Positions 5,421 through 19,608 of a stretch of DNA of 64,000 nt are shown one piece after another; the stretch's first letter is position 1; each line of letters opens with the position of its first letter. The notes under the pieces were generated by a model. It had not been told where the DNA came from. It did no database searches and worked only from the letters and a program-made list of their open reading frames with translations. The DNA comes from Thermoanaerobacterales bacterium. Lineage in GTDB: Bacteria > Bacillota > Thermosediminibacteria > Thermosediminibacterales > Tepidanaerobacteraceae. The position numbers and the translations under genes were made by a program. The stretch lies in NCBI GenBank assembly GCA_012840135.1, contig DUMA01000005.1, positions 1 through 64,000 of the forward strand, written 5' to 3'.

Positions 5421-5464
5421 ATTATATAGTTTCTCCTAATGATAAAATTAAAAAATATGGCGAT

Positions 5465-6134
5465 ATGCACAAAAAAAGACTTATTTTATCAGTACTTTTG
5501 GTTATTATAAGTACAATTTTTTCTATTTTTTCTGGTCTTTCTTTTTCAGTCGTGAAATGGATTATTATTGCTACAGTTGTGACGTCATATAAGATTTCAC
5601 AATGTATACCTCCCGAAATTAAAAAAGAAGTAAAAGATAGATATAATAAAGCTAAAAATAAATTTCAAAATATCATTCAACGATGGGAACAAGAGGCAGG
5701 CGAAGAGTCTTTTATTAAGAAAAAATCAGAGTTTTCTAAAGCTGTAGATCGATATAAAAAACTGCTTTTTTAGAGAGCCACTCTCTTTACAATCATATGG
5801 CATTGAAACCGCCGCTGATATAGATTATCAAAAAATAATATCAATTCCGGGTTTTGGGCATGTATTAACGACCAGCTTGGTTTACTGGAGAAAATCAATC
5901 GAAAGTCAATTTCGATTTGATCCCAGTAAAGGTGTGGATCCAAAATTAATTGCAAAATTAGATAATGAAATTAACCAGGAAAAAGTAAAACTAGAACAAA
6001 TTCTTTTAAATGGTGTCCAGGAACTTAAAAAAATATCAAGTCAAATAATTGCAAAGAGAAAGATTATGCTTAAGGAAATTGAAATGTGCATGATGGAACT
6101 AGCTCAGGCAGAAGCTGATTTTAAGGCACTTTAA
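5465..6134 (+). pseudogene. Remnant of a YegI-like protein: membrane segment plus C-terminal helix-hairpin-helix region
   Basis: Two reading frames joined by a frameshift at the T6 run near 5765-5771. The first (102 aa) has two hydrophobic segments and a charged helical stretch ending KAVDRYKKLL. Continuing in the shifted frame gives QSYGIETAADIDYQKIISIP then GFG and WRKSIESQFRFDP. This resembles the end of COG4248-type proteins, where a kinase is followed by a membrane segment, helix-hairpin-helix motifs and this tail. The kinase domain is missing, and the usual first hairpin motif before SYGIETAADI is also lost, so this is a deletion remnant and not just a frameshift. Family assignment is from motif memory. 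Confidence 0.65.
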
Positions 6135-6311
6135 TTAAAAGAATCTTGCAACCTTAAAAAAGTGGCTTTAGTTATGGTGGCTAAAGATGTCAAGACATTT
6201 TTTTGGTCTTGTATAAGGTGATTTTTTGCTCCTCCTTCCTCGTTTGTATTTAGTAATAGAATACATAAATGTTAAATATTAACTGGAGATTTTCTTTTAA
6301 CTTTTGGTAAA

Positions 6312-6440
6312 CAGCAGTAGCCGTAGCTATGGATATGTGGGCAACGCAATGCGTTGTCCAAGCAGTTGTGGGCTTGCGGGTAACCCGAATGGTTATCCAT
6401 CAAGTCCATAACTGAGGCGTATCCACGGCTGGTGAATATG
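6312..6440 (+). ncRNA. Structured RNA-like element, possibly the 3' end / omega RNA of a lost TnpB element
   Basis: A three-way junction can be drawn by eye. The outer stem is AGCCGT(6319)/ACGGCT(6425-6430) continued by GGATA(6331)/TATCC(6420-6424). Hairpin 1 is GGGCAACGCA/TGCGTTGTCC (6339-6359). Hairpin 2 is a 12-bp stem GTTGTGGGCTTG(6365)/CAAGTCCATAAC(6401) topped by GGTAACC/GGTTATC. One frame through it reads YGYVGNAMRCPSSCGLAGN and then NGYPSSP before a stop, which resembles the low-complexity C-termini of IS200/IS605-type TnpB proteins. No tnpB body is present. The structure is clear; the identity is a guess. Confidence 0.5.
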
Positions 6441-6453
6441 TAGCTTTAATTAT

Positions 6454-6519
6454 TTACTCAAAATCTTTTAATGTGTAGTTCCCATAGTAAACTTCTACTG
6501 GCGTTAAATACTTTAATGT
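6454..6519 (-). pseudogene. C-terminal scrap of an integrase-core (IS3/IS481-like) transposase
   Basis: On the minus strand a frame reads TLKYLTPVEVYYGNYTLKDF followed by E and a stop at 6454-6456. The LTPVEVYYG stretch is typical of the end of rve-type transposases. Nothing upstream of it is left; a 56-nt palindrome abuts it at 6522. Confidence 0.6.
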
Positions 6520-6521
6520 CA

Positions 6522-6577
6522 TGAGACAGGGGACGGTTCAGTGCGCCATGAGGCGCACTGAACCGTCCCCTGTCTCA
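6522..6577. repeat. Perfect 26-bp palindromic repeat (GAGACAGGGGACGG type)
   Basis: Two perfectly complementary 26-nt arms (6522-6547 and 6552-6577) enclose the loop ATGA. The arm starts TGAGACAGGGGACGGTTC. Sequences beginning this way are common dispersed repeats in clostridial genomes. It lies between a transposase remnant and the promoter of the Rpn gene. Confidence 0.9.
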
Positions 6578-6585
6578 ATATTGTA

Positions 6586-6614
6586 TTGACGGATTATAGA
6601 AAAAATTGTATGAT
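6586..6614 (+). promoter_or_regulatory. Sigma-A promoter for the Rpn-type gene
   Basis: TTGACG (6586-6591), a 17-bp spacer and TATGAT (6609-6614). It starts nine bases after the palindrome, so the repeat may insulate or have donated the promoter context. Confidence 0.7.
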
Positions 6615-6701
6615 AATGAGAGAACATATGTTCCATTAAAAACGTAAAATTATTGAAAATCATCACTAAGGATGATAATATAATTGTAAAGGGAGATTGA
6701 T

Positions 6702-7772
6702 ATGGAAAACGGGGAAAAGAATATTATTCATTATGATAAAATCCTGAAAAACCTGTTTAACATCTCCAACAGGCTCACAATATGCGCCATAAATGCCTTA
6801 TTCAAAAAAGACTTTAAAGAAAACGCAAAAATAGAACAATTAAACCGGGAATACATAAGACTTGACAAAACCACTGCCATAGCCGACACTGTCTTGAGCA
6901 TAGAAATAAACGAACAAAAAACAAAATACCACATAGAATTCCAGACCATCAACGACAGGACATTAATAATCCGCATGATAGATTACGGATTTAGAATAGC
7001 CATAGACAACCTGGACTACAGCAAAATAAAACCAGATGAAGAAATAACCGTAGAATTCCCATCTCAAATCATCATATTTCTAAAACACAACGAATCCATA
7101 CCCGACGAACTAAACCTCACAATAAAAATGCCGTATACAGAACAGAAAATAAAATACATAGTGCCTACCTTCAAAATCTGGGAGTATGACCCGGACTACT
7201 ATAAGAAGAAAAAACTCTACATCATGCTCCCGCTGCGGATAATAAACTTAAGCGAAGAATTCGAAAACCTGAAGAAAAGAAAACTTCAGGAAGAAGAAAG
7301 AACAAAACTTCAAAACGAATACCGCTGGAAAATAACAGAAGTAATAGTGAGCATAATAAAAGAATTAAAAGACGCCCTAAAAACAGACGACCTGATCATC
7401 GAAGAATGCAACAAAATACTTCTGGAACTTAGCACCCTGGCCGGGGAACTATTCAACGAAGAGTTAAAAGACATTGAGCAGGAGGTGAATGAAATGGCAA
7501 AAATGATAATCGACCCTGAGATATACAGAAGAGGGTTCGAAGAAGGCTTGGAAAAAGGACTGGAAAAAGGTATTGAAAAAGGGATTGAAAGAGGCGTAGG
7601 GAAAGGTATGGCTGAGACCATAATCAGGCAACTGTGCAAAAAATTTGGAGAGCTACCCTCTGAGTATAAAGAAAGAATCCTGTGTCAGGATAGGCCAACT
7701 CTTGAATTGATTGCGGAAAATATTTTTAACATTGAGTCTCTGAGCGAGCTAGACAGATTCTTGAAGCAGTGA
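6702..7772 (+). CDS. Rpn family recombination-promoting nuclease / putative transposase (PD-(D/E)XK)
   Basis: A 356-aa member of the Rpn (transposase_31-like) family. An N-terminal PD-(D/E)XK nuclease core is suggested by TTAIADTVLSIEINEQ and YHIEFQT (E-x-Q type motif near residue 78), followed by a long helical region. Residues around 280-305 contain the EEGLEKGLEKGIEKGIERGV repeat that typifies these proteins, and a short C-terminal helical domain ends the protein. Rpn proteins are DNA endonucleases that raise RecA-independent recombination; some work as phage-defence factors. The base composition is A-rich. ATG 6702 follows AAAGGGAG. Confidence 0.88.
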   Translation: MENGEKNIIHYDKILKNLFNISNRLTICAINALFKKDFKENAKIEQLNREYIRLDKTTAIADTVLSIEINEQKTKYHIEFQTINDRTLIIRMIDYGFRIAIDNLDYSKIKPDEEITVEFPSQIIIFLKHNESIPDELNLTIKMPYTEQKIKYIVPTFKIWEYDPDYYKKKKLYIMLPLRIINLSEEFENLKKRKLQEEERTKLQNEYRWKITEVIVSIIKELKDALKTDDLIIEECNKILLELSTLAGELFNEELKDIEQEVNEMAKMIIDPEIYRRGFEEGLEKGLEKGIEKGIERGVGKGMAETIIRQLCKKFGELPSEYKERILCQDRPTLELIAENIFNIESLSELDRFLKQ

Positions 7773-7792
7773 AAAGTATAAAGTCAAGAATT

Positions 7793-7823
7793 AACCTGCC
7801 TCCATAAAGGGCAGGTTTATTCT
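7793..7823 (+). terminator. Hairpin after the Rpn gene
   Basis: AACCTGCC and GGCAGGTT form an 8-bp stem followed by a weak T-rich stretch. It is probably a terminator. Confidence 0.6.
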
Positions 7824-7900
7824 TAACTGTGCTTGACGTTTCATGAGTGGTTATGCCCGAATCTATCGCTTGACTTTTTTGCCTTTGTTACCGCATATAA

Positions 7901-7931
7901 AGCAGGATTTTGGCGATTTCTGGAGAATTCT
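7901..7931. repeat. Dispersed AGCAGGATTTT...GAATTCT repeat, copy 2
   Basis: Second copy of the 31-nt motif at 4995-5025 (27 of 31 identical), 77 bp upstream of the BREX chimera start. Confidence 0.6.
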
Positions 7932-8008
7932 TATTAAATCAAAGGATCTTTGATTATTGGCATAGTTTCAAAGCAATATAAATTGATTAAGAATGGCCTG
8001 GTGGGGAA

Positions 8009-8986
8009 ATGTTAAAGGAACTTGACATAAAAAATGCCATAAAGATATTGCCGTATAAATATTACAAGCTCATTCTGATTATGGGGCTGAAGGATCGGCA
8101 AATTTCCGGCATATTGAAGAAAATTTCTTTAGAATTCGGCTATGACTACATCAATTTAAATCTGAAGCTTTCCGAAAAGCTCATTCGACTTCCCTTCGAT
8201 GAGCGCTGTTTTTATGTGGAGGAATATGTAAACGAGATAATCGAATCGTATCACGGCAGCCTGTTGATATTGGATAACATCGAAATCCTTTTTGAAAAGC
8301 ATCTTAAGATAAACCCTTTGCTTTTGCTGAAGAACTTGAGCCGCTATAGACGCATGCTCGCTTTCCACATTCAAAAGGGCGCATCAATACCCATGGGAGC
8401 GGCGGACTTTTACGCAGGGCTAAAACAGAGGTTCCCGGAACGGGACGGCATGTACTTTTTGCCGGATCAGGTAATTATATATGATAAAAAAAGGATGGAA
8501 ATGGAGCTGAATGACCAGATTTCCTTTTTAATTCTGGACGAAAAGACCGCCATCCAGTGGCTCAGAAGGGAGCTGGAAAAAAAGCCTCAGACCTATCAGG
8601 AAATACAACCAAAGTTTCTTCAGGAACTTCATCAGATGAAACATGAAAAACTCCCCGAGCTCTTGGATCTTCTGGAGGAAAATTTCCTGCAGGATGAAAA
8701 GGGAAGATGGTATGTGCCGGATCCAAGCAAGCAGTCGGACCTGGAAAAGCTCAGAAAAAAGACCCTGCTTAAAGAATTTGAGGAGTATAAAAACAGCACC
8801 GGAAGGCTGAAGGTCTTCCGGACCGAGGCCATAAGGGCGGGGTTTAAAAAGTGCTGGAAGGATAAAGATTACGCCACCATAGTGAAAATAGGCGAAAGAC
8901 TCCCCGAAAGCATCCTTCAGGAAGACAGCAGCATATTGATGTATTATGACAACGCCATTACAAGGATGGGCGAAGACCATGTTTGA
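8009..8986 (+). CDS. Chimeric BREX type 3 protein: BrxF N-terminus joined to the C-terminus of the BREX methyltransferase
   Basis: 325 aa, one open frame. Residues 1 to about 118 look like BrxF, the small ATPase of type 3 BREX (LEFGYDYINLNLKLSEKL..LP, then SLLILDNIEILFE as Walker B). The Walker A loop is degenerate, reading GLKDRQIS instead of GxxxxGKS. From about residue 122 (AFHIQKGASIPMGAADFYAG) to the end the sequence is that of the BREX-3 adenine methyltransferase C-terminus (RDGMYFLPDQ, DEKTAIQWLR, KPQTYQEIQPKF, GRWYVPDPSKQ, FRTEAIRAGF, LMYYDNAITRM). The SAM and catalytic motifs are absent. The simplest origin is an in-frame deletion that removed brxC and most of the methyltransferase gene. 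It is probably non-functional in BREX. Confidence 0.78.
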   Translation: MLKELDIKNAIKILPYKYYKLILIMGLKDRQISGILKKISLEFGYDYINLNLKLSEKLIRLPFDERCFYVEEYVNEIIESYHGSLLILDNIEILFEKHLKINPLLLLKNLSRYRRMLAFHIQKGASIPMGAADFYAGLKQRFPERDGMYFLPDQVIIYDKKRMEMELNDQISFLILDEKTAIQWLRRELEKKPQTYQEIQPKFLQELHQMKHEKLPELLDLLEENFLQDEKGRWYVPDPSKQSDLEKLRKKTLLKEFEEYKNSTGRLKVFRTEAIRAGFKKCWKDKDYATIVKIGERLPESILQEDSSILMYYDNAITRMGEDHV

Positions 8987-9142
8987 GCCGAAAGCCACAT
9001 ATCAAATATGCCAGATAATAGATAGCCTGCGATAGACCCATAAAAAATGCAAAACTTTTAACACTTTTCACTGGCTGCAGTATACGTGTGACCCGGCGGC
9101 GGCCGGTCATAAGTATGACCATGCAGCGTTTGGAGTGAAAAT

Positions 9143-11073
9143 ATGATTGAAGATGTGATTGTCCAGAGGTTGCCTTTAAATCAGAATAATTTCATATTGG
9201 TATATGACCCTGACGATTTGATGGCCGGGGAAAAGATTGTATCCCGGATAAATAGCTGCGGTTACACCCTCATTAATTATGAAGACCCGGATGTGTTCAG
9301 GTTTTATTTCGAACAAATTTTAAATAAAGGTACGGATATCGATGAAACAGGCGGGGATAAGATTATACTGAGGCTTACACGAAATACGTATGTACCTTAC
9401 GATATTCAGTCCATATTTCAGGAAATAAGGATAACCATAAAAGACATCTTTCCCGGGCTGAGCTACACTGTTTTAAAGGAAATGGGCAGCGGCATTTTAA
9501 ATGATGTATACGATGCTTATAAAAATTACACGGGTCTGAATCTGGACGACGGCGAAACCATAGATTTCATTCTTGAAAACATCTACGGCATATTTCCGGA
9601 TACCATACACACATACGAAGATTTGATAAAAACATTGATAAAAATATATTACTGCGGGAAAGAGTTGCCTGAAATCATCCTGAATTACCTTTCAAAGAGA
9701 TTCGAGACACATCCGGATTTTATAAGCTTCCCCGTTAAAAAAATTTTATCCGGAAAACAATCCTTCTTTTATTATTTACAGCAGCAATGGGAACTTTATA
9801 TAAAATCTTTTTTTGAAAATAATATCAGATCCGATGTGAATTTTGGCCATGCGGATATCAGAGTGTATATGGACAACCTTTTTTCCGAAGGGTATTTGAC
9901 CCCCGTCCATTGCCATGAAATCCAGAGGATTCCAGTTTGGGCCCGGGATGGGGTAATCTATCAAGAGTTTCTCGATAAAAAGAAGAACTATGAAGAATTG
10001 ATGGAAAAGGTCAGGACGTCCTTGGAAAAGGTGGAATCTTTTAAAGATTGGTGGGGCATAGCTTCCCGGGGGCTGAATTACTGGTGATAGTAAGTGACAG
10101 CAATATAAAAAAGGAGTTGGATCTTAAGGAGTTTGAAAAAACTTCTTTACATCTGGAAAGGTGTTTTAAGGAGTGGCTTCTGGAAAATTACGGTTTGCTT
10201 TCGTCTTTATCGTATACGGCTTTTCCAGTGATGGTACATCATATTACCTGGCACATCCATTACAGGATGCAAAAAGAAAACTTTAAAAAAGCGGCCCTCA
10301 TAGTATTTGACGGCATGTCTCTGGACAACTGGATAATAATAAAAAGGCATCTGAATCAGAGTAAGATATGGATACTGGAGGAGAACCTATCTTTTGCATG
10401 GATCCCAACCATGACCTATATATCGCGCCAGGCCATCTTTTCGGGGCAGGTGCCGGCGTACTTTGCCGATACGTTTTTTTCTACGGATAACGATGAAAAT
10501 CACTGGAAGAGATTCTGGATGGATAAGGGCTTTCGGGCAGATAGCATATATTACATGAGAAATATAAAGCATTTTGACGAAAACGGCCTTGAAGAACTGG
10601 TCAAAAACCCGAAAGCCAGAATACTGGGATTGGTAGTAAACATGATAGATGACTTGGCACACGGCGGACAGCTGCTGCTTTCGGGGATGCATCAGGACAT
10701 AAAACTTTGGCTCAAAGAAGGGGGACTGGAGCGCTTTTTGCTGAAGCTTTCCGCCGGCGGATATGAAATATATATAACCTCGGACCATGGAAACATCAGC
10801 GCCGTATGCCAGGGCAGGATTCAGGAAGGCCTGGGTGTGGATCAGGCGGAAAGCAGGGTCAGAATATACGAAAAATCCAAAAGCCATGATAGCGCCCTTC
10901 AAACATTTAAAGCCTTTAAATGGAAAGGCTATGGCTTGCCCCCGGATTATAATTATATCATCTGCGATGATAACTTCGCTTACGGCAAATATAACGAAAA
11001 AATAATATGTCATGGCGGAACATCCATTGAGGAAGTCATTGTTCCATTCGTCCATGTAAGAAAAGGAGCATAA
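9143..11073 (+). pseudogene. pglZ: BREX type 3 PglZ (alkaline-phosphatase superfamily), frameshifted
   Basis: Two overlapping frames (9143-10087 and 10048-11073) together make a PglZ of about 640 aa, normal for BREX-3. The first frame starts with an IEDVIVQRLP..DPDDLM N-terminus. The second carries the metal-binding motifs AALIVFDGMSLDNW and IYITSDHGN. The break is at the G5 run near 10068-10072: adding one G there restores a continuous IASRGAELLVIVSDSN reading. This can be a real mutation, a sequencing error or a slippage site. PglZ is a core component of every BREX type. The helicase gene normally next to it is absent. An artefact would leave pglZ intact, but the locus would still lack other core genes. 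Confidence 0.82.
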
Positions 11074-11074
11074 C

Positions 11075-11782
11075 ATGATGCAGACAGTGGAGTTTAATCG
11101 ATTCATAAAAAGAGAATGGCTGGATTTCACGGCTTTTCTTGCAGGTCGGGAAAAAGATGAAAAAATAATAAGGGAGAAGCTATATGGATACCTTGAAAAG
11201 GAAACAAAAGCCGAAATCACCCGCCAGAAAACCCTGGCGGAGCTTTTAAGGATCTGGGTAAACGTGCCCGCATCTCATGAGAATCTGAAGCAAAAGGCTC
11301 TAGATTTGTTTGAGAAAGTGCCGGAAGATGAGAAAATGTTACTTCACTGGTCGATGATAATGCTGGCATTCCCCATATTTATCGATGTGGCATCATCATT
11401 AGGAAAGATTTTCAGCCTTCAGGACCGGGTGTCTTTAAAAATCCTGGAAAAGCGCATATTTGAAAAGTGGGGAGAAAGGAGCACCGTAAAATACGCCCTT
11501 CCAAAGATAGTAGGCTCCATGGTCGAATGGGGCGTCATCACCAGGACAAAGGTAGGAGAGTACACTAAAGCCCAGGCTATAGAGATTGAAAAACAGGATT
11601 GTAAACTCTTTTTCATAAACTGCTATATGAAAGCTTTGGAGAAAGATTATCTAAGATTCATTGAAGCAAACAACCTCTCCGCCGCCTTTCCTTTTAAACT
11701 GAACCTGGGGCTTGATGACTTTAATAATTCAAATACCCTGACATTGAGCAGGATGGGAAGTGATGTGGTGATCACTGCTTAA
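11075..11782 (+). CDS. BrxA-like (DUF1819-like) protein of the BREX locus
   Basis: A 235-aa protein, no membrane segment, starting 1 nt after the pglZ stop with its own AAGGAG, so it was translationally linked. The C-terminal half (LEKRIFEKWGERSTVKYALP, then KIVGSMVEWGVI) has the helix-turn-helix-like layout of BrxA proteins, which bind DNA and stand at a BREX operon end. The match is by position and pattern, not by a clear signature, so the name is tentative. It looks intact, unlike the other BREX genes here. Confidence 0.55.
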   Translation: MMQTVEFNRFIKREWLDFTAFLAGREKDEKIIREKLYGYLEKETKAEITRQKTLAELLRIWVNVPASHENLKQKALDLFEKVPEDEKMLLHWSMIMLAFPIFIDVASSLGKIFSLQDRVSLKILEKRIFEKWGERSTVKYALPKIVGSMVEWGVITRTKVGEYTKAQAIEIEKQDCKLFFINCYMKALEKDYLRFIEANNLSAAFPFKLNLGLDDFNNSNTLTLSRMGSDVVITA

Positions 11783-12028
11783 TAATTCAATTAGGAAATA
11801 CACTCTTTGCATTTTGAGATAGTAAATGGACGTGATACAAAAAGTGGAGATTTTCATTAATCTGAGAATTACGAAGTGACATAGCGATTTACAATAGAAC
11901 TAAATATTAACGTTAGTAGTATTATATGGCTTCTGGCATATACAGCAAACTATATTGTGATTCAGACATTGATTAAGCCGTGAAACATATAAATTTTCAA
12001 ACCTCGTCTTTGAAAGGAGTGAAGCCCT

Positions 12029-12943
12029 TTGCCTATTCCTGATTATGAAACCATAATGCTACCTTTGTTAAAATTTGCTGAAGATGATAAAGAGCATTCG
12101 TTAAGAGAAGCAATAGAATACTTGGCAAAGTATTTTAATCTTACTGATGAAGAAAGAAAAGAGCTACTGCCCAGCGGTAGACAATTTATTTTTGACAACA
12201 GGGTGGGCTGGGCATGTACATACTTAAAAAAAGCAGTTCTTCTGGAGTCGGTAAAAAGAGGTTATTTTAAAATAACTGAACGTGGGATTGATGTATTAAA
12301 ACGTGATATAAAGAAAATAACACCCGCCTTTTTAGAGGAGTTCCAGGAATTCAAAGATTTCAAAGCAGTTTCTCGATCACAAGTCTATAACAAACGAAAT
12401 GATAACAAACAGAATGATGGAGATGAGACTCCCGAAGAGAAACTTGAAAATGCATATCAAATAATAAGAAAAAATCTTGCGCAGGAACTGCTCCAAAAGG
12501 TAATGAAATGTTCGCCTTCATTTTTTGAAACCTTGGTAATCGATTTATTAATCAGCATGGGATATGGAGGCTCCCGTATTGATGCAGGAAAAGCCATCGG
12601 TAAAAGTGGAGATGAAGGAATAGACGGCATTATAAAGGAAGATAGATTGGGATTAGATACAATCTATATTCAGGCCAAGCGATGGGAAAACCAGGTTGGC
12701 CGCCCGGAAATCCAGAAGTTTGCCGGAGCTTTGCTCGGTCAGAAGGCCAAAAAAGGTATTTTTATCACAACCTCGAGCTTTACAAAGGAAGCGATAAATT
12801 ATGCCGAAAGCATAGAAAATAAGATTGTTCTCATTGATGGGGAGCAACTGGCAAATTTCATGATAGATTTTAATATAGGAGTTTCAAAGGTGGGGGTCTA
12901 TGAAGTAAAAAAAATCGATAATGACTATTTTGCTGATGAATGA
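12029..12943 (+). CDS. Mrr-type restriction endonuclease (copy 1, intact)
   Basis: A 304-aa type IV restriction enzyme candidate that would cut methylated DNA. Residues 1-90 form the Mrr N-terminal winged-helix domain (PDYETIMLPLLKFAEDDKEH, LPSGRQFIFDNRVGWACTYL). Residues about 155-290 are the Mrr catalytic (restriction endonuclease-like) domain, with FFETLVIDLLISMGYGG, GDEGIDGII and YIQAKRW, giving the D-x(n)-QxK signature. It starts at TTG 12029 behind AAAGGAG. A nearly identical but N-terminally damaged copy lies at 18.5-19.3 kb. A short downstream frame is also shared between the two copies. Confidence 0.9.
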   Translation: MPIPDYETIMLPLLKFAEDDKEHSLREAIEYLAKYFNLTDEERKELLPSGRQFIFDNRVGWACTYLKKAVLLESVKRGYFKITERGIDVLKRDIKKITPAFLEEFQEFKDFKAVSRSQVYNKRNDNKQNDGDETPEEKLENAYQIIRKNLAQELLQKVMKCSPSFFETLVIDLLISMGYGGSRIDAGKAIGKSGDEGIDGIIKEDRLGLDTIYIQAKRWENQVGRPEIQKFAGALLGQKAKKGIFITTSSFTKEAINYAESIENKIVLIDGEQLANFMIDFNIGVSKVGVYEVKKIDNDYFADE

Positions 12944-12967
12944 TGAAAAAAACTAACCAGTAAGAAA

Positions 12968-13102
12968 ATGAAAAATAATCCAAATGTTGGAGATGGAGAA
13001 GAAAGCTATAAAGTTATCATTATGCTATGTTCAGAAGGAATTAGAAGTTATTTGAAGAATATTGAAGTTATAATAAAGTATGGAAATTTATTATGGCTTT
13101 AA
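12968..13102 (+). pseudogene. Short remnant related to the 93-aa gene at 19327
   Basis: A 44-aa frame starting MKNNPNVGDGEESYKVIIML. The first 20 residues match the start of the 93-aa protein after mrr copy 2, and the rest diverges. It marks the right end of the duplicated mrr block. Confidence 0.5.
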
Positions 13103-13126
13103 ATTTGTATAAAGGGGCGGTCGAGT

Positions 13127-13930
13127 ATGGCAAAAGAAACGAGCGGATTACCAGCCTATACAACAATAGAGAATATGTTATCTCTATTGGATATATTTAG
13201 GAATAAGAATGGTGACGAAAAAACATCTAAACCGTTATTTGGTAAGACGTCTTCTTATGGTGTTACAAAATCAGCATTGAGGGCTTTTAAACTAATACAA
13301 GAAGATAGTTGTATATTAACTCCTTTAGGCAGGAAAATTTCTTTTTCAAATGATGATGAGAAAAAGGATGAAGTCCTTAAGCTTATTGTAAATTATAGTC
13401 CATATGAATCTTTACTAATGAATATTTTTCGAGAAAATGAGACTGAAACAGAAATTACAGAAATAGTAAACTTTTGGGGTAAGTTCGAAAAAGGAAGTAC
13501 CCCAAGAAACTTAAAAGATGCAGCAAGACTGTTTGGGACTATGATTGAGTATATTGGTTTTGGCAAATATATTAAGGGAAGTGGAGGAAAAGCAACTCGT
13601 ATTGTTTGGGCTCCTGATGCAAAGCAAAAGTTTGAAGCAGTTATAAATTTATCGGGTAAATCTATTGTTGAGCCAGAAAATTTAAATGCCGAAGTCGTTG
13701 AAATAAAAGAGGAATCCCCAGAAATACATGTTGAAAATGTTAGAAAAGATGAAAAACAGACTAAGGATATAATAAATAATGAGACTACTATAGATATAGT
13801 ACCTGATACTACAATAAGAAATTATACTCCAAATATTAATATTAGTGTAGATATGTCTTCCTGGTCTGATGAAAAGATTAAAAATTTCTTTAAATATGTT
13901 TATGGTATATTTGAGGAGGACAATCAATAG
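13127..13930 (+). CDS. Candidate defence/regulatory protein, first gene of a two-gene unit (DUF5343-like)
   Basis: A 267-aa protein, soluble. The N-terminus (LPAYTTIENMLSLLDIF, then LKAFKLI-type helices and CILTPLGRKISF) reads as a winged-helix-like module similar to DUF5343. Residues about 85-160 (YSPYESLLMNIF, then TPRNLKDAARLFGTMIEYIG) resemble the middle of the next protein (RYEPFITFIQF, FNFLKDLFVTWGTMTNIF), so the neighbours share a domain. The C-terminus is acidic and low complexity, ending in a small helical domain (SWSDEKIKNFFKYVYGIFEE). GGGGCGG precedes ATG 13127. Its stop is 2 nt before the next start. The function is unknown; it may sense, bind or restrain the partner. Confidence 0.6.
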   Translation: MAKETSGLPAYTTIENMLSLLDIFRNKNGDEKTSKPLFGKTSSYGVTKSALRAFKLIQEDSCILTPLGRKISFSNDDEKKDEVLKLIVNYSPYESLLMNIFRENETETEITEIVNFWGKFEKGSTPRNLKDAARLFGTMIEYIGFGKYIKGSGGKATRIVWAPDAKQKFEAVINLSGKSIVEPENLNAEVVEIKEESPEIHVENVRKDEKQTKDIINNETTIDIVPDTTIRNYTPNINISVDMSSWSDEKIKNFFKYVYGIFEEDNQ

Positions 13931-13932
13931 AT

Positions 13933-14922
13933 ATGTATTATATATTACCTTCTCATAACATACCTATAACCTTAGTGTCAGATATTATTGTATTATTAGC
14001 AGTTGACCCTAAAGCTTCAATAGATGATATTTGTTCTTTCACAGGATTCAGCCAATCTTATGTAAAAAGTGGAATCAATATTGCAAAAATGTTAAATTTA
14101 ATAGACCCTGATATTGTAGACAGATATCAAGTCAATATTGAAGCTGTTAATTTATTAGGCAAGACTCCAAATGAAGAAACTAAAATTAGTGTAATTAGAA
14201 AGTATATTCAGCGATATGAGCCTTTTATAACATTTATACAGTTTTGCTTAAATGATGATAGTATTGTTGACTCTGCTCGTAAAGTCTATACATTATATAA
14301 ATTTCAAGGCAAGGATTTTAATTTCCTAAAAGACTTATTTGTAACTTGGGGCACTATGACAAATATCTTTAATGAGAAATCAGGAAAGCTTATTCTCGCA
14401 GAAGAAATTAACTCTACATATAGAAGGTACATAACTGAAGACTTATTACTAAATGATGATATGGCTATTAGGATACATATAGCTGATAGATTAGGAGATG
14501 AAGTATTTACTTTTATGCTCCCTGCCGAAATTGAAGATATTGTAAATGCCTTCAAATCATATAAAAATGACCAGCGAAATGCACTTGATAGTGGCGGTAG
14601 GGCGTTTGAGGATTTTTTAAGAAGGATTTCAGATAAAATAGGTATAAACGTTACTTCTAAAAGTGGTATAGTTGAAGTAATTAATGCTTTATATAACAAT
14701 AAAGATGCTACCGGAAAATTAGATAATAAGGTTCACTATAAACAAAATGCTATTGGTGGAGCAATCGGGAATATAAGAAATATGAGCGGTCATGGATTAG
14801 ATCCTAAAACACTAGAACGATGGGATTTAACGAGTCAAAGCGCCTTGGCGTATTTAGAAATTCTGTTATCTACAATAAGAAGTATTTATATGTTTGTTGA
14901 AAAAGGAGTATACACTTTTTGA
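13933..14922 (+). CDS. Candidate HEPN-type (Abi-C-like) effector, second gene of a two-gene unit
   Basis: A 329-aa soluble protein behind GAGGAGG, 2 nt after the previous gene. Residues about 20-70 form a winged-helix-like DNA-binding unit (SIDDICSFTGFSQSYVKSGI). Residues 95-155 resemble the middle of the preceding protein. The C-terminal third is helical and contains GGAIGNIRNMSGHGLDP: RNMSGH fits the HEPN ribonuclease motif R-x4-H and the abortive-infection C-terminal family. HEPN proteins of this type are often toxic RNases released on infection. Assigning that here is inference from the motif, the partner gene and the defence-island location. Confidence 0.6.
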   Translation: MYYILPSHNIPITLVSDIIVLLAVDPKASIDDICSFTGFSQSYVKSGINIAKMLNLIDPDIVDRYQVNIEAVNLLGKTPNEETKISVIRKYIQRYEPFITFIQFCLNDDSIVDSARKVYTLYKFQGKDFNFLKDLFVTWGTMTNIFNEKSGKLILAEEINSTYRRYITEDLLLNDDMAIRIHIADRLGDEVFTFMLPAEIEDIVNAFKSYKNDQRNALDSGGRAFEDFLRRISDKIGINVTSKSGIVEVINALYNNKDATGKLDNKVHYKQNAIGGAIGNIRNMSGHGLDPKTLERWDLTSQSALAYLEILLSTIRSIYMFVEKGVYTF

Positions 14923-15150
14923 ATTTTGTTTAAAAGGAACATTATGTGAGAACAGTGTTTCATTGGGTGCTGATAAGAAAATTCGCAGAACTGGAGGGAT
15001 TTCGGGAACAGGTGTATATAACGCTGAAATGATAGAAAAAGATAATTCCAAAAAAGCATACCTGTCCTCATTGCAATAGCCCGGTGACTATGAAAGCTAA
15101 TTTTTACCCAAATTGCGGATCGAGGCTTGGAAAATTACTCGGTCTTTCAA
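14923..15150 (+). pseudogene. Decayed DUF4236 gene with zinc-ribbon tail
   Basis: Frame fragments read VSLGADKKIRRTGGISGTGV, then YNAEMIEKDNSKK and, after a frameshift at the A6 run near 15050, CPHCNSPVTMKANFYPNCG. This parallels the intact protein at 5139-5420. The N-terminal third is missing. Confidence 0.75.
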
Positions 15151-15310
15151 ACAGACGCCATTTTGGGTATATATTATATAGGCTGAATCTGAGGAAATAG
15201 AAGATGATTGTAAACTAAAACCCTTGCAAAAGCGGCTAACTTTAAATATGTCCTCGATAAATATTATGAAGAGCTTTTGGAGGAGTTATGATGATAAATA
15301 AATCTGCCAT
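15135..15310 (+). pseudogene. MntA C-terminal remnant and start of hepT, copy 1
   Basis: Nearly the same DNA as 20635-20800: a stretch reading FQT-AILGI, SEEIKDD, then ALAKAA-like DFKYVLDKYYEELLEE, followed by a GGAGG and the hepT start MINKSAIL. Several small indels break the frames. Confidence 0.6.
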
Positions 15311-15493
15311 ACTGAAAATCAGAACATACCAGACGATGATTTGAAAACCGTATGCCTATCTCGTGAGGAAGGTTTTAAGGGTATATTTATTACAAATTCA
15401 AGTAAAATTCACAATCGGGAGGGAATCTATCATAGGTTGGCGTTTACCAAAATTCAGAAGCTTGAAATAAAAAAAATTTTTGATAAGGATTGA
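15310..15493 (+). pseudogene. Unidentified open fragment before the helicase
   Basis: An uninterrupted frame reads DDDLKTVCLSREEGFKGIFI and continues through TNSSKIHNREGIYHRLAF to EIKKIFDKD and a stop at 15491-15493. It is fused to the truncated hepT start with no start codon of its own. I do not recognise the family with confidence. Confidence 0.35.
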
Positions 15494-15501
15494 TTAACTG
15501 G

Positions 15502-18141
15502 ATGTATAATTTTCTGAACCAATGGAGGTGCTCAAAAATAAGTAACAATTTAAATGAAATAATTGATGAATTTTTTCAGGCACTTTATATTGAGATCAAA
15601 AATCTAAAGGAAGTCGGCGGCAAAAAAATTCGTATTTTTGATGGTCGCTTTCTAGCAAAGTTAGAAAATGAATGGGTTTATATATTCGGGATGGATGTTG
15701 AACTTTTTTTGCCGGATTCTACACCTGTTAGAATAGAAATTGATGACAGAAAGTATTACGGAGAGGTAATATCATGTGAAAACTTTGAAATAATGATAGC
15801 CTTAAAGGATAAGATTTTAGAGTCTGTAGCTTACGTAGATATGTACTGCGAGCCATGGAAAATATTGGAAGCATTACAAGCCAGACTTATTGAAATAAAA
15901 AAAGGGAACCACATTAGAAATGTTGAACTAGCTTTGAAGACAGTAAATGAAAGTCGAAACAGATATCTTATTACAAACGGAAAATTAAATCGGGGACAGA
16001 ATTCAGCTATAAAAATGGCATTAAATCAGCCGGTTACTTTTATCTGGGGTCCACCAGGGACCGGTAAAACCCATTCTTTAGCAAAGATAGCTTTAAGGTT
16101 TCTTAAAAAATCAAATAAGGTTCTTATTATATCCCAGAGTAATATAGCTGTCGATGGAGCCATTTTTAAGATTAGCATATTAGGAAATGATTTTCTTAAA
16201 CCGGGTAATGTGATAAGATATGGTTATCCCAAGATGGAAGAAATAAGAAATTCCGATCTTACTTCATTTAATCTAACCCTTCAAAAATATCCGTTATTGA
16301 ATATAAAAAAAGAGGCACTAGAAAAAAGAAGAGATATTTTAAAGAATAAAAAAAACAGTCAAGAATGGATATCTTTAGAAAAGGATTTAGCCTCATTAAG
16401 GCAAGAAATAAAAAAATATGAGTATGAGATAGTTAAAGAAGCAAAAATTGTAGCTACTACTATATCGAAAGCCACAATTGATTCTATTATCTTTGAGGAT
16501 TCTTATGATGTCGTGATAATGGATGAAGCGAGTATGGCATATATTCCTCAGGCTTTCTATGCTGCGAGTCTTGCTAAAAAACATGCTATCTTTTTGGGTG
16601 ATTTTCGACAATTGCCTCCTATTGCTTTAAGCGATGGTGCTCTGGTCAGAAAATGGCTTCTGAGAGATATCTTTGAAGAAGCAAAGGTAAAAGAATCAGT
16701 TGAAACAAGACAATATCATCCATGGATGAGCCTTCTCAATGTTCAAAGACGCATGCATCCCAAGATTTCCGGTTTTATAAATGTAAACATATATGGTGGT
16801 TTACTTGAAGACCATGAAGAGGTTATTGAAAATACACAACACATTATCGACCGGAGACCGTTTCGAGGTGAAGTTATATCACTTTTAAATCTCACTCGGT
16901 TTCCAGCCTTTTGCTGTCAGGATAGTTCACGGTCAAGATATAATATTTTGAGCGCTTTTATTTCCGTGCAGTTAGCTTTGCAAGCTGTGTCTGATGGTCA
17001 GAAATCTGTAGGGGTTATTACACCATATGCGACACAATCACGATTTGTACGGTCGATACTTATGGATATCTTCCGCGGAAGACCATTAAATAAAATACCC
17101 GTAACTGCGGCTACAGTCCATCAATTTCAAGGATCAGAGAAGGATATCATAATATTTGATTGCGTTGATAGTTATAGGCAGACAAGACCAGGTGTATTAT
17201 TAACCGGACAGGACCTTGATAAAGCTATGAGATTAATAAATGTAGCCGTTTCGAGAGCCCGCGGAAAGTTTATCGGTGTGGCTCATAAAGGTTTTTGGGA
17301 TAATAGGTTAAATAAAAATGATATGTTAAATAAGATGTTTGTCTATTTGAAGGAAAAAGGCAAATACATCTTTGAAGAAGAGATAGTAGAGATATTAAAA
17401 GAGTCAATCGCTGATAGATTGCCAAATGTGCCAAGATGGTTTTATAGGGAAGATTATGTAGACATTCTTTTAAAAGATTTTAAGGAAGCTAAGAAAGAAA
17501 TTTATATAGATGTTCCCCATGGAGAATTGGTAGAAAACGTAGACTGGTGGGATGAAGTTTTAAAATCAAGTAAAAAAGGAATACTTGTTAATATTCGATG
17601 CGAATCCGTTGAAGATATCCCCACAAAATTAAGACATATTGCTAGAGAAGCCTCTTTCATTTGGTCACCTATTACAATAATAGATCAAAACATCATCTGG
17701 TATGGTCATCCTATGAAAACTATGGAGAAAGTAGAATATATGCCCATTATGAGGTTCGAAGGTCAAAAGACGGCCCGAATGTTAGTTAGCATGCTTGAAA
17801 TGGCACGAAGTATGGCAAAAAGTCATGAACATGCTATGAATTTACATAATACTCTAGCGACATTTATAGCAGACCATCTCAAATGTCCTAAATGCGGCAG
17901 CCCCTTTAAACTTCGTAGAGGAAGAAACAACAGACCTTTTTTAGGTTGTTCTTCGTATCCAAACTGTATGCAAACTATGCTTGTCCCGGAGGAAGTCGTG
18001 AATGCATATTTGGCATCTACGAAAAAAACATGCCCGGATTGCGGTTACCCATTTGAAGCTAAAGCAGGTAAATATGGCTTATTCATAAGCTGTATGGGAT
18101 TTCCTAAATGTAAAAATACATTAAGTATATGGGAGATATAA
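15502..18141 (+). CDS. UPF1-like superfamily 1 helicase with PLD-like region and two C4 zinc ribbons
   Basis: About 880 aa. All SF1B helicase motifs are present (numbering from 15502): GPPGTGKTHS (about 183), VVIMDEAS (about 338), GDFRQLPPI (about 366), NVQRRMHP (about 412), VHQFQGSEKDIIIFD (about 538) and NVAVSRARGKF (about 580). Residues about 650-765 look like a degenerate phospholipase-D-type nuclease module (ITIIDQNIIWYGHP). Two topoisomerase-type C4 zinc ribbons end the protein (CPKCGSPF..CSSYPNC and CPDCGYPF..CMGFPKC). Such fusions are typical of defence islands; the exact system is not recognised. The start is uncertain: TTG 15490 and ATG 15502 are in frame, but the only good ribosome-binding site (GGAGGTG, 15524-15530) points at an ATA codon at 15538. 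Confidence 0.85.
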   Translation: MYNFLNQWRCSKISNNLNEIIDEFFQALYIEIKNLKEVGGKKIRIFDGRFLAKLENEWVYIFGMDVELFLPDSTPVRIEIDDRKYYGEVISCENFEIMIALKDKILESVAYVDMYCEPWKILEALQARLIEIKKGNHIRNVELALKTVNESRNRYLITNGKLNRGQNSAIKMALNQPVTFIWGPPGTGKTHSLAKIALRFLKKSNKVLIISQSNIAVDGAIFKISILGNDFLKPGNVIRYGYPKMEEIRNSDLTSFNLTLQKYPLLNIKKEALEKRRDILKNKKNSQEWISLEKDLASLRQEIKKYEYEIVKEAKIVATTISKATIDSIIFEDSYDVVIMDEASMAYIPQAFYAASLAKKHAIFLGDFRQLPPIALSDGALVRKWLLRDIFEEAKVKESVETRQYHPWMSLLNVQRRMHPKISGFINVNIYGGLLEDHEEVIENTQHIIDRRPFRGEVISLLNLTRFPAFCCQDSSRSRYNILSAFISVQLALQAVSDGQKSVGVITPYATQSRFVRSILMDIFRGRPLNKIPVTAATVHQFQGSEKDIIIFDCVDSYRQTRPGVLLTGQDLDKAMRLINVAVSRARGKFIGVAHKGFWDNRLNKNDMLNKMFVYLKEKGKYIFEEEIVEILKESIADRLPNVPRWFYREDYVDILLKDFKEAKKEIYIDVPHGELVENVDWWDEVLKSSKKGILVNIRCESVEDIPTKLRHIAREASFIWSPITIIDQNIIWYGHPMKTMEKVEYMPIMRFEGQKTARMLVSMLEMARSMAKSHEHAMNLHNTLATFIADHLKCPKCGSPFKLRRGRNNRPFLGCSSYPNCMQTMLVPEEVVNAYLASTKKTCPDCGYPFEAKAGKYGLFISCMGFPKCKNTLSIWEI

Positions 18142-18470
18142 AATTAAGCTGCCTGAGCAGATTTGTCTTATCATGCTCTTTTGTAAATTATAAAATTGAA
18201 TGGATTCCATGATAAAAATGGTATCCGAGTAAACTTAGAATGAAGGGGGTATCATTATTCTAAACGAAGTCCTGCAATTAATTATGGACGATATTAAACA
18301 GTGCTATGAGAAATGGGATGAAAAATCAAAAATTAAATTTTCTTAATAACTATTCGCAATATATTTAAAGAATATGGGATTAAGGAACATAACGGTTGAA
18401 GGAAACTATGCTAGAAAAACATATAAATTTTCATTTAGAACCTCGTTTTTGAAAGGAGTGGAGCCCCATT
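18142..18470. other. Spacer with no intact gene
   Basis: Contains an AT-rich stretch and a fragmentary frame (NEVLQLIMDDIKQCYEKWDE then a stop near 18345). From about 18415 the sequence matches the leader of mrr copy 1, so the left boundary of the duplicated block lies here. Confidence 0.5.
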
Positions 18471-19302
18471 TTGTCTATTCCTGGCAAAATATTTTAATCT
18501 TGCTGATGAAGAAAGAAAAGAGCTACTACCCAGCGGTAGACAATTTATTTTTGACAACAGGGTTGGCTGGGCATGCACATATTTAAAAAAAGCGGTTCTC
18601 TTGGAATCAGTAAAAAGAGGTTATTTTAAAATAACTGACCGTGGGATTGATGTATTAAAGCGTGATATAAAGAAAATAACACCTGCCTTTTTAGAGGAAT
18701 TCCAGGAATTTAAGGATTTCAAAGCAGCTTCTAAATCACAAGTCTATAACAAACAAAATGATAACAAACAGAATGATGGAGATGAGACTCCTGAAGAGAA
18801 ACTTGAAAATGCATATCAAATAATAAGAAAAAATCTTGCGCAGGAACTGATCCAAAAGGTAATGAAATGTTCGCCTTCATTTTTTGAGACACTTGTCATT
18901 GATTTATTAGTTAGCATGGGATATGGAGGTTCCAGGATTGATGCGGGAAAAGCAATAGGTAAAAGTGGAGATGAAGGAATAGACGGCATCATAAAGGAAG
19001 ATAGATTGGGATTAGACACGATTTATATTCAGGCTAAGCGATGGGAAAATCAGGTTGGTCGCCCGGAAATTCAGAAGTTTGCCGGAGCTTTACTCGGTCA
19101 GAAAGCCAAAAAAGGTATTTTTATCACAACATCAAGTTTTACGAAAGAAGCGATAAATTATGCCGAAAGCATAGAAAATAAGATTGTTCTCATTGATGGG
19201 GAACAACTTGCAAATTTCATGATAGATTTTAATATAGGAGTTTCAAAGGTGGGGGTCTATGAAGTAAAAAAAATCGATAATGCCTATTTTGCTGATGAAT
19301 GA
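18471..19302 (+). pseudogene. Mrr-type restriction endonuclease, copy 2, N-terminal deletion
   Basis: Matches copy 1 (12029-12943) closely from LADEERKELLPSGRQF to the C-terminus NAYFADE, with intact catalytic motifs GDEGIDGII and YIQAKRW. Just after the TTG start, a deletion joins the codons for SIP to the region of the AKYFN codons in the wrong frame, giving a stop within nine codons. An internal TTG at 18601 could still initiate a 233-aa product with the catalytic domain but without most of the specificity domain. Confidence 0.8.
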
Positions 19303-19326
19303 TGAAAAAAACTATCATCTAATAAA

Positions 19327-19608
19327 ATGAAAAATAATCTAAACGTTGGAGATAGAGAAGAAAACTATAAAGTCATCATTATGTTGTGTTTATTAGTAGA
19401 AGAAAACGGAGGGTTTTATTTTATTATGGACAAATACAGGAAAGGTTATTTAATACATGAAACTTCTGATGATCATTACTGCCTTTGTAAAATTTTAAAT
19501 GAATACAATAGCGAAGAAGAAGCAGAAAAAGATTTGATTGATCTTCTTACACATCATAAAACAGAAAAACAAATATTGAAAGAATATAGTAAAAAAGAAG
19601 TGTATTAA
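19327..19608 (+). CDS. Hypothetical 93-aa protein
   Basis: Small, charged, soluble protein (GFYFIMDKYRKGYLIHETSD, then a helical EEEAEKDLIDLLTHHKTEKQ tail). I do not recognise the family. It starts 24 nt after the mrr copy 2 stop, and a truncated relative follows mrr copy 1, so the two genes moved together. No clear ribosome-binding site precedes ATG 19327. Confidence 0.45.
   Translation: MKNNLNVGDREENYKVIIMLCLLVEENGGFYFIMDKYRKGYLIHETSDDHYCLCKILNEYNSEEEAEKDLIDLLTHHKTEKQILKEYSKKEVY

Follow-up and report, generated by a model that had tools for sequence, protein, structure and literature searches.

The window considered here is a 64,000-nucleotide stretch of a Thermoanaerobacterales contig, and on its forward strand it carries, at 8009..8986, an open reading frame of 325 codons without an internal stop, in which residues 1-113 of BrxF run in frame into the C-terminal part (residues ~643-852) of PglXI, the methyltransferase of BREX-3. 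The BrxF part (codons 1-113, 8009..8347, +) was delimited by family models and nucleotide alignment, and it stops 50 codons short of the end of brxF. The PglXI part (codons ~643-852 and the stop codon, 8353..8986, +) was delimited by family models, alignment, structure prediction, and the published description of the protein (PMC12839542), and corresponds to the C-terminal helical, helix-turn-helix (HTH) region, devoid of methyltransferase motifs. Residues 5-118 resemble the PADLOC BrxF family (E 1.1e-40), and the NCBIfam model BREX_3_BrxF (NF033453) matches residues 6-118 with 109.7 bits, above its curated cut-off of 50. This match covers profile positions 3-115 of 149 only, i.e., the chimera is truncated and does not hold the full-length BrxF P-loop domain with its region beyond residue 113. 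The PADLOC PglXI profile aligns from residue 94 onward almost to its own end (position 918 of 919), with E 5.8e-100 for the whole protein. No Pfam model matches the chimera.

The chimera is followed on the same strand by two other BREX genes. The first, pglZ (9143..11073, +; family models and alignment), is frameshifted: one T is missing at ~10069/10070 with respect to the relatives, so that the gene is split into two overlapping frames (9143-10087 and 10048-11073) and has no open PglZ frame. The second, brxA (11075..11782, +; family models and comparison with relatives), looks intact with 235 amino acids against 236 in the relatives, and matches PADLOC BrxA over its full length (E 1.5e-85). 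Upstream, a terminator-like hairpin (7793..7817, +) lies between a DUF4351 gene and the chimera; it comes from a consensus scan only, which found two such hairpins in the region against 1.4 expected. Further downstream (region 11983-19390), an Mrr restriction-enzyme gene is present in two direct copies (12123-13031 and 18482-19390) that share 92.6% identity. Between the copies lie ~5.4 kb with two unnamed open reading frames (13127-13930 and 13933-14922) and a gene for an 883-amino-acid SF1 helicase with zinc ribbons (15490-18141). A single Mrr copy is present in the same-genus genome G001.

Undeleted counterparts of this locus occur in two relatives, and family models assign both to BREX-3. 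One, L004, is a near-identical undeleted locus that was retrieved by scanning 84,980 species genomes; it lies on a contig of a metagenome-assembled genome from the Tepidanaerobacteraceae, with brxF (163 amino acids), brxC (1223), pglXI (852), pglZ, and brxA. Its genome, judged from identical coordinates to be G004 of the whole-genome search, belongs to another genus of the family, and its DNA is 94-95% identical to that of the window. The other is L035, the orthologous locus of G001, a complete genome from the same genus; here brxF encodes 156 amino acids, and the locus is bordered by the same DUF4351 gene upstream and an Mrr gene downstream. The window is therefore collinear with an intact orthologous locus and interrupted by loss, as expected of a BREX-3 remnant. 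These loci with the same flanks, together with the matches of both halves to BREX families, bear out the central claim of an earlier note on this DNA, namely that the frame is an in-frame BrxF-methyltransferase chimera left by a deletion, and they supply the full locus that the note suggested seeking in related strains. In G001, pglXI is itself frameshifted (L035 ~12050) at CATTTTTATACG / CATTTT-ATACG, giving frames of 385 and 445 amino acids, close to a part of the gene that has diverged strongly; the locus is otherwise full.

Nucleotide alignment to the two relatives places the deletion join at 8348..8352 (+), with a shared TAT just before it. Window positions 7772-8348 correspond to L004 3514-4090 (95.0% identity) and 8352-11772 to L004 10008-13431 (94.5%), whereas in L035 the two blocks are 6805-8348 with 5440-6984 (95.1%) and 8352-8986 with 12937-13571 (86.1%). 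The loss amounts to 5,914 bp relative to L004 and 5,949 bp relative to G001, and takes in the BrxF codons after 113, the whole of brxC, and the first 642 codons of PglXI with the methyltransferase motifs. The earlier note had named the correct genes, and its estimate of 6-7 kb was slightly too large for a loss of 5.91-5.95 kb. Its placement of the join, near the motif AFHIQKG at about residue 120, was roughly right as well, since the two-block alignments put it at residues 114-117, slightly before that motif, which begins at residue 118.

At the join, the window reads CGCTATAGACGCATG, the left parent CGCTATAAAGCC, and the right parent CTGTATGACAGCATG. A few bases match neither parent exactly, and the search for short homology in the intact loci gave only the three bases TAT as clearly common to both. 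Deletion between long flanking direct repeats thus finds no support, and because only TAT is clearly shared, the sequences point to illegitimate or microhomology-mediated recombination as the probable route. The exact join was not found in viral contigs.

The deleted DNA is absent from the rest of the source genome, an assembly of 3.18 Mb in 56 contigs that is 99.4% complete with 2.3% estimated contamination. A 5,917-bp query spanning the deleted DNA has no match there, while it matches G004 and G001 over its full length; neither protein nor family searches detected BrxC in the source genome, and its remaining PglXI-family matches belong to different methyltransferases or to a short relic. Transfer of the segment to another place in the genome was rejected on this basis. 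The same results bear on the possibility that the join is an assembly artefact. It is known from the assembly alone, and the contig number and estimated contamination would allow for such an error, but the missing 5.9 kb lies on no other contig, the contig around the join is 143 kb long, the breakpoint has no long repeat, and pglZ is broken independently. We consider an artefact very improbable, although the strain may be a mixed population in which some cells carry the undeleted locus.

One apparent sign of decay turned out to be inherited. The Walker A loop of the BrxF part (chimera residues 26-33) is degenerate, as the earlier note had stated, and reads GLKDRQIS. The intact BrxF proteins of L004 (GPKDRQIS) and L035 (GPKERQIS) already have degenerate versions, so the change predates the deletion and was rejected as a mark of decay; the more distant L005 reads GPIGSGKT. 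BrxF has been described as a relative of BrxB with an inactive STAND domain (PMC12839542).

If the chimera belonged to a conserved stand-alone family of BrxF-methyltransferase fusions, the deletion reading would fail, and we searched for the architecture in other genomes. Among 149 relatives and 398 genomes from across the phylum, which are overlapping sets, only the source genome matches both halves (residues 1-325), and the scan of 84,980 species genomes returned PglXI matches only, all of them starting at residue 88 or later. In every other match, BrxF and PglXI are separate genes, each in its own frame. Within the sampled genomes a conserved family is therefore rejected, its probability being negligible, and the chimera is an ordinary deletion product and a clean example of decay.

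Similar losses have affected other BREX-3 loci. When the 398 genomes were searched for BrxC and BrxF, brxC adjoined ~50 of the ~70 BrxF loci by a hand count, and several of the other loci are decayed. The source genome holds a second BREX-3 relic on contig C19 (C19:22938-24707; L037 6939-8708, −), in which a BrxF piece (residues 87-134) is followed directly by broken pglZ and brxA, with brxC and pglXI missing. In G019 (contig C123) there are pieces of BrxF, BrxC, PglXI, PglZ, and BrxA, and in G069 (C81) BrxF stands before a stub of BrxC, part of PglZ, and BrxA. Two further loci have open fusions: G364 (C11; L045 1391-2887, −) encodes 498 amino acids in which BrxF residues 1-~130 are joined to the second half of the helicase BrxHII, with PglZ after it, a chimera independent of that in the window, and G234 (C80, a 3.6-kb contig; L049 1259-2140) encodes 293 amino acids in which BrxF residues 1-~58 are joined to BrxC from residue ~11. 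All five loci resemble the window in that brxC and/or pglXI are deleted and brxF sequence is kept, but they differ in their endpoints, and the fusion is in frame only in G364 and G234, the C19, G019, and G069 loci being more degraded. The two in-frame cases are compatible with chance. Recurrent core loss with an in-frame BrxF fusion might instead have been selected, e.g., because it ends self-toxicity while the downstream genes are still expressed, though we regard this as improbable.

Some further observations were made during these searches. A third, short relic in the source genome (C10; L036 11533-11692) consists of the last ~50 PglXI codons, and its DNA is 85.6% identical to window positions 8835-8994. 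Just 3' of the fusion in G234, a BrxC piece is in one frame with an apparent type I restriction methylase. In G095 (C9; L053 5095-5571), a lone BrxF-like gene of 158 amino acids with an intact Walker A motif (GSPGSGKS) is flanked by the lysyl-tRNA synthetase gene and by further genes of housekeeping type, and no BREX genes adjoin it. BrxF matches without BrxC that resemble it occur in G034, G180, G204, G312, G342, G362, and G392, and this type of gene may represent a conserved orphan family.

Whether the chimera has been kept for a new role, e.g., as a DNA-binding protein or as a dominant-negative BREX-derived protein acting with BrxA, was considered by means of codon comparisons and structure prediction. 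Changes unique to the window lineage, relative to G004 and G001, number 11 synonymous and 2 non-synonymous in the PglXI part and 5 and 6, respectively, in the BrxF part; the corresponding counts are 4 and 11 for the first part of pglZ and 12 and 7 for brxA. The branches are short and mostly older than any datable deletion. The PglXI part is clearly constrained on the window branch; yet, as this branch may mostly predate the deletion, the same 11:2 ratio is equally expected without any role of the fusion, and does not demonstrate that the fusion has a function. The structure prediction of the chimera (mean pLDDT 56.3) is reliable in residues 173-325 only, where pLDDT is ~80 over most of the length, in agreement with the HTH domains reported at the end of BrxXI, another name for PglXI (PMC12839542). 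The BrxF half is unreliable, as is the prediction for the intact L004 BrxF (mean pLDDT 44.5), and in this low-confidence model the join cuts off the predicted BrxF strands beyond residue 113. The ratio in the PglXI part, the 325 codons free of stops and frameshifts, and the intact brxA count against a dead remnant, and the first two, along with the predicted fold of the C-terminal half, speak for a new role. Against it stand the nearly equal numbers of synonymous and non-synonymous changes in the BrxF part, the lack of a second genome with the chimera, the removal of the predicted BrxF strands and of the entire catalytic part of PglXI, and the frameshift in the adjoining pglZ. The open frame, which the earlier note took as a sign of either a recent event or a retained function, needs no special explanation, because both parents were open and a join falls in phase by chance in one case out of three. 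On balance, a retained function is unlikely.

The reading that we hold to be very probable is that of a pseudogene-like fusion at a locus that is now dead, left behind when one deletion removed ~5.9 kb from inside a chromosomal BREX-3 operon. The ancestral operon would have had the order brxF-brxC-pglXI-pglZ-brxA, and one deletion within it would have joined brxF codon 113 to pglXI codon ~643 in the same phase, depriving the host of the BrxC ATPase, of the catalytic region of the methyltransferase, and of the end of BrxF; the pglZ frameshift would have been acquired separately. The brxF promoter may still transcribe the chimera, giving a truncated BrxF half linked to a foldable, DNA-binding-like helical C-terminal half, a product that is most likely inert and for which there would have been too little time for a stop to arise. 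In one type 1 BREX system, methylation failed when brxC was deleted, and restriction required wild-type BrxC and PglZ (PMC9009780). Judged by these established requirements, methylation and phage exclusion of the BREX kind would both be unworkable, and neither is credible, at a locus that lacks BrxC and the methyltransferase core and whose PglZ is broken. As a defence system it is almost certainly dead.

The locus documents the exact manner in which a chromosomal BREX-3 system died, with intact orthologues for comparison, and it indicates that domain-level annotation could mislabel such a remnant as a BREX system or as a new fusion gene. The presence of several relics in the same lineage hints that BREX-3 has been lost repeatedly through removal of brxC and pglXI. 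Compared with BREX type 3 as it is known, i.e., brxF, brxC, pglXI, brxHII, pglZ, and brxA, the window shares the halves of brxF and pglXI, pglZ, and brxA in the canonical order, but it differs in that brxC, whose ATPase a functional system requires, is missing, the end of brxF is gone, pglXI is reduced to codons ~643-852 without the catalytic motifs, pglZ is frameshifted, and brxHII is absent. The last of these differences is not part of the deletion, because the intact L004 and L035 loci, like L005, also lack brxHII, a gene reported in 77% of type 3 loci (PMC12839542).
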